Assembly: GCA_903864435.1 (NCBI GenBank)
Contig: CAIPFY010000130.1
Location: 1-48,892, forward strand
DNA from: an uncultured Chloroflexota bacterium
Lineage (GTDB): Bacteria > Chloroflexota > Anaerolineae > Aggregatilineales > Phototrophicaceae
DNA length: 48,892 bases
Direction: 5' to 3'
Shown here in pieces: positions 5,278 through 32,753 of this stretch. Each line of letters begins with the position of its first letter. Position 1 is the first letter of the stretch. The position numbers were made by a program, and so were the translations under genes. The notes under the pieces are model-generated. The model saw nothing but the letters and a program-made list of their open reading frames with translations. It did no database searches and was not told the origin of the DNA.

Positions 5278-5303
5278 AAACGCCCGCGCAAGGGCGGGCG
5301 TTT
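5278..5303. terminator. Bidirectional terminator between convergent genes
   Basis: Perfect 10-base inverted repeat AAACGCCCGC / GCGGGCGTTT with a 6-base loop, flanked by A and T runs on both arms. It starts just after the peptidase stop and ends just before the stop of the convergent 39-residue peptide gene. Confidence 0.85.
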
Positions 5304-5306
5304 GGC

Positions 5307-5426
5307 TTACTTCTTCTGACCTTCTTCGTCGTCCCCTTTACCACCGGCCACCTGATCCAGTTGATCGTCGCTCAGGGGTTGCGGCTTGGGATCGTCCTTT
5401 GGCTTCTGATCTTTTTTGTCTGGCAT
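5307..5426 (-). CDS. 39-residue peptide with double-glycine leader motif
   Basis: A short gene with strong translation signals: AAAGGA seven bases before ATG 5426, stop at 5307-5309, then a terminator. The peptide is very hydrophilic and Lys/Asp/Pro-rich. It contains LSDDQLDQVAGG, which matches the consensus of double-glycine leaders of secreted peptides (LSxxELxxVxGG). Cleavage after GG would release a charged 10-residue tail, KGDDEEGQKK, with no Cys, Ser or Thr, so it is not an obvious lanthipeptide core. Peptides with such leaders are normally processed and exported by ABC transporters with a C39 peptidase domain; none is in this window. It lies 67 bases downstream of the TIR gene on the same strand, with its own -10-like box. 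Function unknown. Confidence 0.7.
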   Translation of the reverse strand: MPDKKDQKPKDDPKPQPLSDDQLDQVAGGKGDDEEGQKK

Positions 5427-5493: not shown

Positions 5494-8400
5494 TCATGGT
5501 GCGCGGGTCGCTTCCGGCGTGGCTTCTGGTGTCGCTTCCGGCGTGGCTTCCGGTGTCGCTTCGGCAGGCGGCGTGCGGGTGAGAGTCAGCGTATAGTCGC
5601 CGGAAGTGCCGCGTATGCTGGTGACTTGTATCAGATAGTCGCCATCCCGTTCCAGCAACAAATCGTTCAAAACCGAGTTGGTCAGGCCATCTTCCAGATC
5701 GTCATTCTCGCCCAACAGTGTGCCGTCCGGGTTATAGACGCGCAGGAACGTGTCCATTAAGCCCTGCGTGAGTTGTTCCTGCCATTTCACATCGTTGCCG
5801 GGTTGTGCCGCTTCGAGCAGAACCGTCAGGTGTTCGCCCGCTTTGCCGCTAAACGTCCAGAAATCCACCCGATCGCCGGCCAGTGTGCCGCCGTTCGCGC
5901 CGGTTTGCGCGGCGGGAATGGGGGCGATGGGCAGGGCATCCTGCGCGGCCTGCGTGCTGCTCACAGTGGGCAGCGCCACCGGGGGCGACAGCGTGGGATC
6001 GCTGCGCTGGTAAGGCAGCAGCGGCGGGGCGCTCCCATCCGGGGCGCACATCTGCGAAACGCGGTACAGGGTGCGCTCCTGACAGTTCAGGTCAATGATG
6101 TAACGGTTGTGGTAGCTCCACTGAATGAGTTCGTCGCGGTTGGTCACTTGCCAGATGCGAGCCGTATGATCGGCGGAGGCCGACACGATTTCACGCCCGT
6201 CCGGGCTGAAATTGGCGTCCCAAACGGCGTTGGTATGCCCGTTGTAGCGCAGGATTTCCTCGCCGCTGGCAATGTCCCACAGGCGAATGGTGTTATCCAG
6301 CGAGGACGACAGCGCCAACCGTCCATCCGGGCTGAAGGCCACGCTGAACACATCGTCGGTATGCCCGTTAAATTGCTGCAAAATGCTGCCGGAAGCCACA
6401 TCCCACAGGATCATGGTTTTGTCCTGCGATCCGGTGAGGGCGGTCTTGCCATCGGGACTGAAGGCCACATCGTAGACTGGCCCGGAATGCCCGTCCAGCG
6501 TGCGGATAATCGCACCGCTAAGAGTATCCCAGACGATCACGCGGTCATTGCGACTGCTCACCGAGATGGCGGTCTGCCCGTCCGGGCTGATGACGACGTT
6601 ATACACATCGCTGGCATGAGCAGGCATCCGGCGGATTACGCGCCCGCTGGCGATGTCCCACTGAATCACGGTTTCGTCATACGAGGCCGAGAACACCGTG
6701 CGCCCATCGGGGCTAAAGGCGATTCCACCGACGGCTTCTGAATGCCCGGTGAAGCGGCGCACTTCGCGCAGCATCGGGCGGGTTTCGAGGTTCAGCAGAA
6801 TCAGGGTTCCATCGGCATAACCGACCATCGCCTGCTTGCCATCCAAACTGATCGCCAGCGCCTGCGCCGAACTGATGTAACTGCTGTAGCGGGCTTGTTC
6901 ACGCCCCGAACCCGCAGCCCACAGGACGACTTGGTGATCGGCAGAGGCGGTGAGGATGCTGGAACCGTCCGGGCTGAAGGCTGCCGAGTACACCACGCCT
7001 GTGTAGCCGCCAAACCGCTGCACCTGCGCGCCGTTTTCCAAATCCCACAGGCGCAGCGTGCCATCGGTGGAACCGGAAAGCAGTTGCGAACCACCGGCTC
7101 GCAGCGCCACCGCGTAGACGGTGCTGGTGTGTCCGGCAAAAGCGCGATCGCGTTCGCCCGTGTCAATCGTCCACTGGTAGATGTTGCCATCCAGACTGCC
7201 CGAATAGGCGGTGTTCCCATCCGGGCTGATGGCGATACTCAGGACGCCGTTAGTGTGTCCGGTGAAAGTGCGAATCGGGGCGCTGGAACGCACCGACCAC
7301 AAAATGAGTGTGTAGTCTTCCGAGGCGGACATGAACGCTTGCCCGTCGGGGCGAAACGCCAGCCCGCGCACTTGATCGTCATGACCGGAGAAATCGTTGC
7401 GGATGAGTTCACCGCTGCGAACGTTCCACAGGGCGATGCTGCCATTCTCGAAACCGGCCACCGCCAGCACCCCATCCGGGCTGAGTGCCACGCTCAACGC
7501 ATCGTTGTCGCTGGCGGGGGTCAGGTCGCGGTGACTGCCGTCGCTCAATTCCCACACCCGCACTTTGCCACCCTGATAGCCCACCAGTAGCCGGTTCCCG
7601 CTGCGGCTGAACGTCAGCGCCAACGGTTTCTCGTCGGCGGCCAGCAGAGTTTGAGCGCCGGTGGTCAGGTCAAGCAGCACCAGCGTGTCGTCGTCCAGCA
7701 CCAGCGCGGCCTGTTTGCCATCGGTGGGATTAAAGGCGATGCTACGGGCAATATCCGGCATCGGCCAGCGGTTGACTTCGCTGCCGTCATCCAGATTGAG
7801 TAGCACCAGATCATCACTGTCCGCCACCGCCAACGCCTGTGTGCCGTCCGAGCTGACCGCCAGATGGGAAAGGCGGTTGGTGCTGAAACTCGACCACTGG
7901 CGGCGGGTGCCGGGGGTATAGGCCGCCTGCGCCAGAATGCTCCCCGCGAGAGGCGGCGCTTGCTGCCAGCGGTTAGACTCTAAGGCCAGCGCCAGCGCGA
8001 GATCGGTGTTGTTGTCCAGATACAGAAGGCGCTGCGCGTTGGCAGCCAGCGCCAGACTGCGGGCGCGCCCCTCGTTCAGCAGGGCTTCTTCGCGGGCGGC
8101 GCGGGCTTCTTCGGCGTTGCGGTTGGCGATAATGCTCTGAATGAAGGCGATAATGCCGAGGCCGATGATGAGCGTGGTCACGCCCATAATCACCAGATTC
8201 AGCCGCCGCCGCCGGATCGCCACCTTCCGCGACGAGAGGATGTACTCCCGCTGAAGCGGCGTAGCGTTCGGCTGGGTGATCTGGCTTTGATGCAACCACG
8301 CTTCGGCTTCTTTCAGGTCTTTGCCGTGCAGCAGCAGGCTGTCCTCGTGGTTTTTGTCCTCCCACTCGGCAGCACGCACCGTGTAACGGGTGTGGGCGCG

Positions 8401-8814
8401 TACAAAGTCCAGATCGGTATCAATCGCGTTCAGGATGGCGACGAAGGCGCGTTCGTAATCATCCACTTCACGCGATTTCACCCAGTTGTGCGCCGACAGG
8501 GACGGGTGCATCTGCTTCATATCATCGGGATCGGTCACTTCCTGCCGCAAAATAGGAATCAGGCGCTTGTTGTTGACCAGCGCATGTTCCAGTTCAAGGC
8601 GGCAAGGGCCGGAACGCACCGAGGCCGGGGAGATGATAAATAGCAGGGCGTTCGCGCCTTCGATGCCCCGATAGGCTTCATCCAGCCAATCGGCAGTCAG
8701 CGGAATGTCTTCCCAGTCCACCCATGCGTCACGATCATGTTTCAGCAGATCATTGTAAATCTGCCGGACAAACTCACTGTCCTCACGCGCATAGGACATG
8801 AATACATCGGTCAT
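5494..8814 (-). CDS. TIR / transmembrane / 14x WD40 / PPC-domain protein
   Basis: 1106 residues. Residues 1-130 form a TIR domain (start VFMSYAREDS; S68-x2-C71-x2-E74, the usual place of the catalytic Glu of NAD-cleaving TIRs). A linker to about 200 ends in RKVAIRRRR, followed by one membrane helix (about 204-228) and a short Ala/Glu-rich coil. About 14 WD40 repeats follow (about 305-900; e.g. GHTDDVFSVAFSPDG and IRLWDIASG), enough for two seven-bladed propellers. Then comes a PPC-like beta domain (about 975-1085) and a tail of PEAT repeats. By the positive-inside rule the TIR is cytoplasmic and the propellers and PPC are outside, a receptor-like layout. TIR domains can hydrolyse NAD or act as adaptors; which applies is not shown. 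Start at ATG 8814; its ribosome site is weak. Confidence 0.88.
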   Translation of the reverse strand: MTDVFMSYAREDSEFVRQIYNDLLKHDRDAWVDWEDIPLTADWLDEAYRGIEGANALLFIISPASVRSGPCRLELEHALVNNKRLIPILRQEVTDPDDMKQMHPSLSAHNWVKSREVDDYERAFVAILNAIDTDLDFVRAHTRYTVRAAEWEDKNHEDSLLLHGKDLKEAEAWLHQSQITQPNATPLQREYILSSRKVAIRRRRLNLVIMGVTTLIIGLGIIAFIQSIIANRNAEEARAAREEALLNEGRARSLALAANAQRLLYLDNNTDLALALALESNRWQQAPPLAGSILAQAAYTPGTRRQWSSFSTNRLSHLAVSSDGTQALAVADSDDLVLLNLDDGSEVNRWPMPDIARSIAFNPTDGKQAALVLDDDTLVLLDLTTGAQTLLAADEKPLALTFSRSGNRLLVGYQGGKVRVWELSDGSHRDLTPASDNDALSVALSPDGVLAVAGFENGSIALWNVRSGELIRNDFSGHDDQVRGLAFRPDGQAFMSASEDYTLILWSVRSSAPIRTFTGHTNGVLSIAISPDGNTAYSGSLDGNIYQWTIDTGERDRAFAGHTSTVYAVALRAGGSQLLSGSTDGTLRLWDLENGAQVQRFGGYTGVVYSAAFSPDGSSILTASADHQVVLWAAGSGREQARYSSYISSAQALAISLDGKQAMVGYADGTLILLNLETRPMLREVRRFTGHSEAVGGIAFSPDGRTVFSASYDETVIQWDIASGRVIRRMPAHASDVYNVVISPDGQTAISVSSRNDRVIVWDTLSGAIIRTLDGHSGPVYDVAFSPDGKTALTGSQDKTMILWDVASGSILQQFNGHTDDVFSVAFSPDGRLALSSSLDNTIRLWDIASGEEILRYNGHTNAVWDANFSPDGREIVSASADHTARIWQVTNRDELIQWSYHNRYIIDLNCQERTLYRVSQMCAPDGSAPPLLPYQRSDPTLSPPVALPTVSSTQAAQDALPIAPIPAAQTGANGGTLAGDRVDFWTFSGKAGEHLTVLLEAAQPGNDVKWQEQLTQGLMDTFLRVYNPDGTLLGENDDLEDGLTNSVLNDLLLERDGDYLIQVTSIRGTSGDYTLTLTRTPPAEATPEATPEATPEATPEATRAP
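5508..5563. repeat. 12-base tandem repeat encoding the PEAT tail
   Basis: About four to five copies of a 12-base unit (GCTTCCGGCGTG and variants) within the end of the TIR gene. It encodes Ala-Thr-Pro-Glu repeats, a low-complexity C-terminal tail whose length may vary between strains. Confidence 0.8.
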
Positions 8815-8942: not shown

Positions 8943-8981
8943 CCACGCTGCGAATGGAGTTTATTTCTTGGAGATGCTGTC

Positions 8982-9392
8982 ATGACACTGGTTTATATGG
9001 CGGGGCCGCTGTTCAACCGGCACGAACGCGCATACATGGAAACGATTACCGCGCTGGTGGAAGCCGCCGGCTACAAGACCTTCCTGCCGCACCGCGACGC
9101 GGGCGTGCTAACCGACTTCCGCGAGGAGATGCGCACGCACATCTTCCGCACCGATATGGTATCGCTCACCACCTGTCAGGCGTGTGTGGCGATGCTGAAC
9201 GGCACCGACCACGACTCCGGCACCTCCGCCGAGATTGGCTACCTGAACGCCAAAGGCATTCCGGTCATCGGCGTGCGTGATGACATTCGCTGGATGAACA
9301 ATTTCATCTGGGGCATGTGCGACGAAGGCCGCCGTCTGGTGCGCACGCCCGAAGAAGCCGTCGAAATCCTCGTCAAGCTGGTCGCGCCCTGA
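8982..9392 (+). CDS. Nucleoside 2-deoxyribosyltransferase-like protein
   Basis: 136 residues from ATG 8982, preceded by GGAG at eight bases; longer in-frame starts lack this. It opens with VYMAGPLFNRHER, the nucleotide-binding start of the PF05014 family. It carries GTDHDSGTSAEIGY, in which E84 corresponds to the catalytic Glu that attacks C1' of the sugar. Family members swap bases between deoxynucleosides or hydrolyse N-glycosidic bonds of nucleotides; the exact substrate cannot be read. Length is normal for the family. It shares TGATG with the following gene, so they are coupled, and is divergent from the TIR gene. Confidence 0.82.
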   Translation: MTLVYMAGPLFNRHERAYMETITALVEAAGYKTFLPHRDAGVLTDFREEMRTHIFRTDMVSLTTCQACVAMLNGTDHDSGTSAEIGYLNAKGIPVIGVRDDIRWMNNFIWGMCDEGRRLVRTPEEAVEILVKLVAP

Positions 9393-30176: not shown

Positions 30177-32669
30177 TTACTGCGCTTCGGGTTCGCCTTC
30201 TTCGACGGCTTCCAGCAGCAGTTCGCCATCGTCGCCCACCGTCACGCGGACTTCACTCGCCAGTTTGAACTGCCCGGAGAGGATACCGTCCGAGAGCGAG
30301 TCCTCGACTTCGTTCTGGATCAAGCGGCGCAGCGGGCGCGCCCCAAATTCGGGGTCGTACCCCTTCATCGCCATCCAGTCACGGGCACCGTCGGTCACAT
30401 CGAGGGTGATGGCATGTTCGATCAGCCGTTCACCGACCTTCTTCAGTTCCAAGTCCACGATCTGCTTGATCTCGTCGCGGGTGAGGGCGCGGAACACGAT
30501 GGTCGCGTCCACACGGTTCAGGAATTCGGGACGGAATGCGCGGCGCAGTTGTTCGGTCACGTTCTTGCGCATCTCGTCGTACTGGAACTGTTCTTCCTTC
30601 GCGTCATCACGGGGCGTATCAAAGCCCAGCGCGGCGTTACGCTTAATCAAATCCGCGCCGACGTTGCTGGTCATGATGATGATGGCGTTCTGGAAACTGA
30701 CGGTGCGCCCACGCGCATCGGTCAACTGGCCTTCTTCCATCACCTGAAGCAGCATATTGAACGCTTCGGGGTGCGCTTTCTCGATCTCATCAAACACCAC
30801 GATGCTGTACGGGCGGCGGCGGATCGATTCGGTCAGTTGACCGGCGTCCTCATAGCCCACGTAGCCGGGAGGCGCGCCCACCAGACGGGCGACGCTGTGC
30901 CGTTCCATGAATTCGCTCATGTCCAACTGCACCAGCGCGTCCTCGCTGCCGAACATGAATTCCGCCAGCGCCTTCGTCAGTTCGGACTTGCCCACGCCCG
31001 TCGGGCCGAGAAACATGAACGAACCAATCGGGCGGCGCGGGTCTTTCAGGCCAGCGCGGGCGCGGCGAACGGCCTTGCTGATGGCTTGGATGGCCTCGTT
31101 CTGACCAATGATGCGCTTGTGCAGCGCCCCTTCCATCTGCATCAGGCGTTCGCCTTCTTCGCCAGCGATGCGGCGGATGGGAATGCCCGTCCACATCGAG
31201 ACGACTTCGGCGATGTCTTCTTCGCTCAGGCGCGGCTGATTGGTTTCGCGGTTCCAGTTGACTTTGAAATCGTCCAGCGTGGCCTGCAAGCTCTCGCGCT
31301 GAGTTTTCAGCTGATTCACCTCGTCGCTGTTGGGTTCTTCCTTCAGCAGCATTTCAAGGTCTTCGTCCACCTGCGCCAGTTCCATTTCAGCCTTGCGAAC
31401 CTGCGCGGCTTCCGGGCTTTTGTACATGCGCAACCGCGCCGCGCCTTCGTCAATCAGGTCAATCGCCTTGTCCGGCAGGAAGCGATCCGGCACGTAACGG
31501 GCGGAGAGATTGGCGGCGGCGTCAATCGCGTCGTCGGTAATTTCGACGTTGTGATGATCCTGATACGGAACTTTAATCCCCTGAAGGATTTCGATGGTTT
31601 CTTCGATGGTGGGTTCATCCACCAGAATTTGCTGGAAGCGGCGTTCGAGGGCGGCGTCGCTTTCGATATGCTTGCGGTACTCGTCCAGCGTGGTCGCGCC
31701 GATGCACTGAAGTTCGCCGCGAGAGAGCGCCGGCTTGAGGATGTTGGCGGCGTCCACGCTGCTGCCCGCGCTACCTGCGCCGACCAGCATGTGTACTTCG
31801 TCAATGAACAGAATGCTGTCGCTGGACTTCAGTTCTTCGATCACGCGCTTCAGGCGTTCTTCAAACTGCCCGCGATACATCGTACCTGCCACCAGCGAAC
31901 CCACATCCAACTGCAACACACGCTTGCCCAGCAGCGGCTTGGGCGTTTCGCCGTTGACGATGCGCTGTGCCAGCCCTTCGACGATGGCAGTTTTGCCCAC
32001 GCCCGGCTCACCGATCAGCGCCGGATTGTTCTTGCGGCGGCGGCTGAGTACCTGAATCACGCGCTCGATTTCGGTTTCGCGGCCTACCACCGGATCGAGT
32101 TTGCCTTCGCGGGCGAGTTCGGTCAGGTCGGTCGCCAGTTGATCCACCAGCGGGGTTTTGTTGTCTTTCTGACGGGGGGCGCTCCGGCGTTCCGGTTCGG
32201 CGGGTTGCTGCGTCTGCACCGGGCTTTCTTGCAGCACGCGGCGCGTCTGACGGCGCACTTCTTCCGGGCTAATCCCCAACCGCTTCAGCACCTCAATCGC
32301 CACGCCGTCCGACTGGCGAACCAGTCCCAACAGCAAGTGTTCAGTGCCGATATAGTGATGCCCCATGCGACGGGCTTCATCCACCGCCAGTTCCAGCACG
32401 CGCTTGGTTCCCGGCGACAGGTCAAGCTGGGTACTGGGCGTGCGGGGCGTGGCACGGGTGAGTTCTTCCACCAGTTCTTCCACGCGGCGCTGTTCCAGTC
32501 CCAGATCACGTAGGACGCGACCGGCGACGCCGCCTTCTTCGCGCATCAGCCCCAGCAGCAGGTGTTCCGTCCCGATGTAATTATGGCGAAGGCGCTCGGC
32601 CTCCTCCTGTGCAAGGCTCAGAACCCGCCGCGCCCGCTGAGTAAAACGTTCCATCTTGTTATTCGGCAC
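30177..32669 (-). CDS. clpC: ClpC-type AAA+ unfoldase
   Basis: 830 residues from GTG 32669, chosen for GGAGG seven to eight bases upstream; ATG 32654 ([12 protein letters not shown]) is the family-like alternative without a ribosome site. Two Clp-N repeats (about 15-160; [11 protein letters not shown] twice), AAA1 with Walker [11 protein letters not shown] and Walker B ILFIDEVH, a middle region with a coiled coil, then AAA2 with [13 protein letters not shown], and a C-terminal D2-small domain. ClpC works with ClpP to degrade misfolded or tagged proteins; no clpP, mcsB or ctsR is nearby. Single gene with its own terminator. Confidence 0.95.
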
Positions 32670-32753
32670 GGTTACTACCTCCGCAGCTTGTGACCATCCG
32701 GCCACCTACTGTTGACTCACGAATGTCTGGATGATTTTTAACACGTCCAAGTG

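Follow-up and report, generated by a model that had tools for sequence, protein, structure and literature searches.

To our knowledge, the bacterial TIR proteins characterized so far act on intracellular events. Peptide signalling is known from the ComC/ComAB/ComD pheromone system, which unites a short peptide with a double-glycine leader, a C39-ABC exporter and a membrane receptor. The nearest described logic for a receptor of the kind reported here is that of the Planctomycetota Ser/Thr kinases, in which one membrane helix separates a cytoplasmic signalling domain from a long WD40 or TPR array predicted to lie outside (accessible sections of PMC11032199). Animal Toll-like receptors also span the membrane once, with a TIR domain inside and a repeat ectodomain outside (accessible sections of PMC7075850). 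The locus analysed here lies in contig CAIPFY010000130.1 of an uncultured Chloroflexota bacterium (genome G000), whose 48,892 nucleotides form the window. A minus-strand open reading frame (ORF) at 5494-8814 encodes a TIR protein with one membrane helix and a WD40 array, and a gene for a short peptide with a double-glycine leader follows it. The best overall explanation, which we hold tentatively and judge to fall just short of probable, is a transmembrane TIR receptor that senses the linked exported peptide.

The receptor gene (5494..8814, minus strand, as are all features below unless stated) encodes 1106 residues and has the same bounds as in a preliminary description of this DNA. That description had proposed a TIR domain with a Ser-x2-Cys-x2-Glu pattern, a basic run RKVAIRRRR followed by one membrane helix, about 14 WD40 repeats and a PPC domain; all but the last were borne out, and the PPC domain in part. 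The TIR domain (residues 1-135, 8410..8814), presumed cytoplasmic, matches TIR_2 (PF13676) at G000:C130:8443-8805 with 82.9 bits (E 1e-22, cut-off 28), is also seen in the AlphaFold models and by Foldseek, and holds the putative catalytic motif S68-x2-C71-x2-E74 (8593..8613). A conserved helical juxtamembrane linker (residues 136-199, 8218..8409) leads to the membrane segment (residues 196-225, 8140..8229), made up of the basic run and the helix; here the only hydrophobic helix, 207-225 with a Kyte-Doolittle mean of 2.67, comes directly after RKVAIRRRR. Beyond a helical neck (residues 226-314, 7873..8139), supported by relatives and by the AlphaFold models, the Pfam WD40 match (E 2e-96) and a hidden Markov model (HMM) trained on the repeats of this same protein delimit 14 WD40 repeats (residues 316-896, 6127..7869), presumed outside. 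A C-terminal cap with C911 and C923 (6025..6126), recognized by the cysteine count, precedes the PPC-like domain (residues 983-1066, 5617..5868). Taken alone, the tail matches PF04151 with E 3.6e-4 but at 21.8 bits falls short of the cut-off (25.9), as does the G008 ortholog (22.3 bits); the G001 ortholog exceeds it (28.3 bits). Because the window tail stays below the cut-off that the G001 ortholog passes, we regard the PPC domain of the window receptor as probable, not certain.

An AlphaFold model of the full receptor (32 sequences, mean predicted local distance difference test score, pLDDT, 82.9) agrees with the layout described earlier: it shows a region resembling TIR, helices, and strands from 302 to 889. 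The TIR domain scores mostly ∼ 90 or above, as does the propeller region in most of its blocks of ten residues, and the PPC part is modelled poorly. A second model, of residues 1-305 (61 sequences, mean pLDDT 93.8), contains a single unbroken helix, 186-267, that runs from the linker through the membrane segment into the neck. The closest Foldseek match to the full model is 2ymu, a highly repetitive propeller, and the WD40 array probably forms two propellers. Identity to the G001 ortholog falls from 75% in the TIR domain to 43% in the WD40 array and 36% in the PPC part; this faster divergence of the ectodomain fits a varying sensor, although it is not specific to one. Ligand diversification by reshuffling of WD40 repeats was considered and dropped: window repeats are often closer to repeats of a different index in the ortholog than to those of the same index, but we do not press the point because window repeats also resemble each other.

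Relatives were collected with alignment A1 (TIR, linker and helix, 21 rows), used after a query with the whole receptor had given no match against the genome contigs. The sample comprises the best 80 of 377 loci encoding a relative, with 86 proteins that match A1. The named loci come mainly from Chloroflexota and Cyanobacteria, the others from Actinomycetota (L164, L165, L173), Terriglobia (L154) and Thiotrichales (L171). Kyte-Doolittle windows, rather than a trained predictor, served to locate membrane helices. A helix stands at the matching position in 84 of 85 assessable relatives (one fragment set aside), a count that is favoured by taking relatives as the top matches to a profile containing the helix. 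The preliminary description had proposed an N-in/C-out topology and had pointed to homologues without the helix as the case to look for; the one found, L169, is a TIR-linker-NACHT protein whose helices come further on. Over the 15 residues on either side of the helix the mean net charge is +3.4 before and +0.24 after (84 relatives), and the charge before exceeds that after in 79 of the 84 and equals it in 4. In some relatives the TIR-linker-helix stem carries other domains instead of WD40, namely bacterial SH3 (SH3_3/SH3b) in L104 and L106, CHASE2 in L126 and an ARC6-like IMS domain in L136; CHASE2 is an extracellular domain according to the accessible sections of PMC5587647.

Cysteines point the same way. 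Past the membrane, 66 of 75 complete distinct members have an even number of them (binomial p 4e-12, uncorrected for kinship); before it only 21 of 75 do, in our view largely because of the conserved Cys71. The window receptor has just two cysteines past the helix, C911 and C923 in the cap, which probably form a disulfide; a search of G000 found no VKOR disulfide enzyme, and DsbA-like Thioredoxin_4 has 4 matches there. Within the WD40 region of members with at least seven repeats, cysteine accounts for 2 of 13,069 residues in 23 cyanobacterial proteins and 22 of 17,735 in 34 from Chloroflexota, as against 242 of 9,374 in 16 NB-ARC-WD40 control proteins, whose cysteine counts are even in 6 and odd in 10. 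The controls derive from 20 NB-ARC loci of ∼ 1,200 residues among the matches listed, 16 with 14 WD40 repeats and 4 with none; the 16 are presumed cytoplasmic, and none has a hydrophobic helix just ahead of WD40 (one borderline stretch lies in an NB-ARC half). Taken together, these indirect sequence tests support the earlier topology well, and the protein is very probably an N-in/C-out single-pass receptor.

The peptide gene (5307..5426), which the preliminary description did not report, is an ORF of 39 codons on the same strand that begins 67 bp past the receptor stop; GGAAAGGA precedes its ATG. The encoded 39-residue peptide has a leader ending in PLSDDQLDQVAGG and a 10-residue core, KGDDEEGQKK. 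A terminator-like hairpin with a T-rich tail follows at 5281..5296, where a 43-nt stretch has a fold z of -4.8. The scan found this one hairpin in 4.2 kb against 2.8 expected by chance, and it is therefore its position that counts. In a leave-one-out profile search the window peptide ranked first of 1,234 stop-to-stop segments of the window (E 8.4e-6, next 0.28), and again when the profile was built from other genera only (G021, G035, G041; E 1.7e-4, next 2.4).

Peptide genes of this type lie on the same strand behind the receptor in the window, G001, G008, G021, G035 and G041, at gaps of 61-160 bp. In a tree of residues 1-305 (89 tips, with G035 partial and other paralogs of the G-numbered genomes left out) these receptors and L107 of G012 form one group of seven with support 0.958, so that six of the seven sampled clade members have the gene. 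A strict leader-motif scan over the loci (ORFs of up to 150 residues) found such ORFs behind receptors of this clade and otherwise only in G036 (L272/L288) and G114 (L298), where they are, as labelled by eye, longer RiPP-type precursors (ribosomally synthesized and post-translationally modified peptides). Across the 154 genomes of the order, the peptide profile had matches with E ≤ 0.001 in seven genomes and ten matches with E < 1e-6 in six; nine of the ten adjoin a receptor (one each in the window, G008 and G041, two each in G001, G021 and G035). The profile itself was built from eight receptor-adjacent matches, and the second G021 copy and a match at G008:C58 lay outside it. Among 76 complete named members of the receptor family, a peptide gene stands within 1 kb downstream in L101 and L105 only and upstream in none, and the link is therefore a property of the clade, not of the whole family. 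Leaders are conserved while cores vary; the cores have 8-16 residues, many of them Pro, Gly or charged, and contain no Cys.

Exporter genes accompany the peptide genes. In G001, G021 (L105) and G041 (L101), an NHLM cassette adjoins the receptor, downstream of the peptide gene. It consists of an HlyD-like gene (TIGR03794, which in G001 scores below cut-off), a C39-ABC gene (TIGR03796) and another gene of ABC type. The G035 contig ends after the HlyD-like gene, and a C39-ABC gene lies on another contig. The window genome has its TIGR03796 match at G000:C281, with 1071.9 bits against a cut-off of 853.3. TIGR03796 exceeds this cut-off in 19 of 151 relatives. These include 7 of 91 genomes at family level and 3 of 17 at genus level; every one of the six peptide genomes has it, and the three in the genus are its three peptide genomes. 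If independence is assumed, the probability of six out of six within 7 of 91 is 1e-8, or 1.4e-7 with G021 and G041 counted once; the genomes are related, and the values are therefore guides only. The peptide genes of G001, G021 and G041 also have a terminator-like hairpin behind them, which in G041 overlaps with the start predicted for the following gene; G035 has three candidates where 1.3 are expected, and none was found after the G008 peptide gene. Because of these hairpins, the exporter genes may have transcripts of their own. In G001, the NHLM cassette next to the ortholog has a further neighbour, a gene for a DUF4062-nSTAND1-HEAT protein (L302:346-3069, G001:C118); DUF4062 is a family of TIR-like NADases according to the accessible sections of PMC13174449.

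The catalytic potential of the TIR domain can be gauged from its conserved residues. All 21 rows of A1 share Ser68, Cys71 and Glu74, and S-x2-C-x2-E occurs in 85 of 86 named relatives, the remaining one (L148) retaining Ser and Glu. The closest structures to the N-terminal part by Foldseek are TIR domains of SARM1, MyD88 and Toll receptors, and the closest solved chain by sequence profile is Cat1, a CRISPR-associated TIR protein that cleaves nicotinamide adenine dinucleotide (NAD). In SARM1, W71 and E75 are named as ligand-binding in the accessible sections of PMC7075850. Four positions before the Glu, 64 of 85 relatives have Val, 13 have Ile and 8 another residue; none has Trp. Since the Glu is kept and the Trp at Glu-4 is absent, NAD cleavage by the window TIR is plausible, yet not assured.

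We propose the following mechanism. The TIR domain and helical linker would lie in the cytoplasm and the WD40 array, cap and PPC-like domain outside, connected by the predicted helix 186-267. Because one unbroken helix would join both sides, an event outside could change how the TIR domains are spaced or rotated, and these might then assemble and act, with NAD cleavage as the presumed output. Receptor and peptide genes probably form one transcription unit. The peptide would be cut after its GG and exported by the NHLM-type C39 peptidase-ABC exporter, which this genome encodes on a different contig. In its mature form it would most likely be sensed by the ectodomain, directly or with other components. 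That the downstream peptide is a partner of the receptor is probable; that, once exported, it is the ligand is suggested by gene order, the conserved leader with its variable core and the co-occurrence of the exporter, and we put this forward tentatively. The full circuit, a bacterial peptide signal in which an exported peptide acts through a double-propeller ectodomain on the TIR domain and causes loss of NAD or a nucleotide signal, is possible though rather doubtful. If it exists, neighbours or kin could trigger growth arrest, death or immunity in each other, and the circuit would be a bacterial parallel to Toll-like signalling, complete in itself and running from the outside in.

Several observations weigh against this explanation. 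For topology, the number of cysteines past the membrane is odd in 9 of the 75 members, and neither WD40 repeats nor relatives are independent counts. Nine Chloroflexota nSTAND-TM (transmembrane)-WD40 proteins, eight of which have an even number past the membrane, are poor in cysteine in their N-terminal halves as well (0.15 per 100 residues), and in G000 ORFs with a single N-terminal hydrophobic stretch have 0.81 cysteines per 100 residues against 1.09 without (23 and 95 ORFs, picked by length). Because those halves are poor too and these ORFs barely differ, we rejected low cysteine as sole proof of export in Chloroflexota and weighed it only alongside parity, charge, domain swaps and the cyanobacterial control. 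Most characterized WD40 proteins are cytoplasmic, and this, like the low cysteine content of the presumed cytoplasmic nSTAND halves, would suit a protein whose WD40 and PPC-like parts stay inside, with a helix that is buried or re-entrant. We consider such an arrangement highly improbable in view of the domain swaps, the position and charge bias of the helix, the cysteine parity and the contrast of the WD40 arrays with the controls. As to output, the window TIR has Pro at Glu-4. The lack of Trp there in all 85 relatives, the 20 TIR_2 matches in many architectures across the 5.4-Mb window genome and the Foldseek matches to MyD88 and MAL filaments are what one would expect of a membrane scaffold that recruits other TIR proteins and does not cleave NAD. 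The near-universal S-x2-C-x2-E motif, with Ser and Glu kept even in L148, and the proximity to Cat1 argue against it; a scaffold is nonetheless a substantial possibility, if somewhat less than probable.

The role of the peptide meets similar objections. The link came from looking beside receptors, and the tenth profile match (G008:C58; E 2e-7) stands behind a secreted protein that is PPC-like (E 7e-4), not behind a TIR protein. The window core has little in common with other cores, and none of the curated leader models is reached by the window peptide (best score 18.8 against 32 for NF038167; 13.5 against 50.9 for the NHLP leader), which does have a leader motif ending in GG, a short core and a C39 exporter in its genome. 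L107 of G012 retains the receptor but neither a peptide gene nor a TIGR03796 exporter. Moreover, the C39-ABC gene lies apart from the receptor in G000 (G000:C281) and G008 (G008:C214); for the same reason simple linkage is a poor explanation of their co-occurrence. The receptor could thus respond to another ligand, such as cell-wall fragments or proteins of phages or competitors, with the peptide as a passenger or a separate small bacteriocin; the 74 of 76 complete members without the gene, the SH3b and PPC-like tails, which suggest binding to wall or surface, and the G012 receptor all fit this. It leaves aside the peptide behind six of seven clade receptors, with a conserved leader, variable cores and an exporter in each genome, and we hold it to be a real possibility, though less than probable. 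NHLM exporters and double-glycine leaders are typical of bacteriocins, and the leader has weak, sub-cut-off matches to CTB bacteriocin and NHLP families. The peptide might accordingly be a bacteriocin or toxin, with a receptor that guards against it or times its use: peptide outside would signal attack or crowding, and the TIR domain would halt growth or kill. The DUF4062-nSTAND1 gene beside the G001 cassette would suit such a role. The short, Pro-, Gly- and charge-rich cores without Cys do not, and no modification enzyme was noticed beside the receptor-linked cassettes, whose flanks were not scanned systematically; we think this role unlikely. In the G008:C58 arrangement the same type of peptide gene stands behind a secreted PPC-like protein (L334:7187-8202); PPC may be the partner common to both settings of the peptide gene.

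The stem of the receptor is shared more widely. Profile A4, of linker and helix, matched 47 of 400 genomes of the phylum (at least 80% complete), and its weaker matches may represent an nSTAND version. Searched singly against Pfam, the 24 members of A4 gave weak, scattered matches at most; the best match of the linker and helix stretch is DUF2157 (E 0.0025, below cut-off). The receptor linker is conserved among relatives and aligns with the equivalent region of L177 (probability 92), a Pkinase-nSTAND1-TM-WD40 protein of the same genome (L177:3853-8484, G000:C352) whose linker, neck and Cys-pair cap resemble those of the TIR receptors. L126:5146-6510, from a cyanobacterial metagenome-assembled genome, is a TIR-TM-CHASE2 protein, i.e. 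a TIR domain with a known extracellular sensor domain. Loci L104, L145, L146, L156 and L175 each encode at least two family members. The largest cluster of neighbours among the 80 named loci (14 loci) consists, by eye, of generic sensor kinases and was set aside; the second (10 loci) is mostly a chain of unrelated ABC proteins, in which the C39 signature and NHLM genes occur at L101 and L105 only.

A defence island was considered for the window and rejected on the basis of the scanned ORFs, a part of the total. A Pfam scan of 20 other window ORFs, several of them without a match, recognized ordinary enzymes, transport proteins, a chemotaxis receptor and the like. PADLOC gave weak part-length TIR matches and one match in the WD40 region for the receptor, and among ten other window ORFs matches to a single AAA-type ORF. 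This ORF (30177-32705, minus strand) matches the candidate PDC-M37B and DolB models and is possibly a general AAA protein. The divergent neighbour at 8970-9392 (plus strand) belongs to the nucleoside 2-deoxyribosyltransferase family (PF05014).

In the full-text literature searched, outside which most subscription papers fall, we found no description of a TIR-TM-WD40 architecture or of a TIR-peptide link; the one hit for double-glycine and TIR domain concerned rice XA21. Neither is described in the accessible sections of PMC10907252, PMC11032199, PMC7159879, PMC8195603, PMC5587647 or PMC7075850. A TIR family coupled to an outside sensor, one clade of which has an export-type peptide gene, would make outside-in TIR signalling in bacteria testable with minimal parts: one peptide, one ectodomain and one TIR domain, with a candidate ligand supplied.

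Set against known systems, the window receptor shares the TIR domain and its conserved Glu with ThsB-type Thoeris and other TIR defence proteins, but its match to the type III Thoeris model ThcB4 (NF058526) is far below cut-off (19.9 against 220 bits) and no defence system was recognized among the scanned neighbours. L177 and nSTAND-like relatives have a similar linker, transmembrane helix, neck, WD40 array and Cys-pair cap; L177 carries a kinase and a STAND NTPase where the window receptor has TIR. In ComC/ComAB/ComD the output is a histidine kinase, whereas here it would be a TIR domain and the exporter is of the NHLM type. Toll-like receptors place leucine-rich repeats first and TIR last (accessible sections of PMC7075850), the reverse of the TIR-first, WD40-second order of the window receptor, and we see no evidence for common descent of the two architectures. 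The Planctomycetota receptors have a kinase in the place of TIR, and no linked peptide is described for them in the accessible sections of PMC11032199. We therefore rate the receptor family as a variation on described receptor logic and the peptide-TIR circuit as a novel case.

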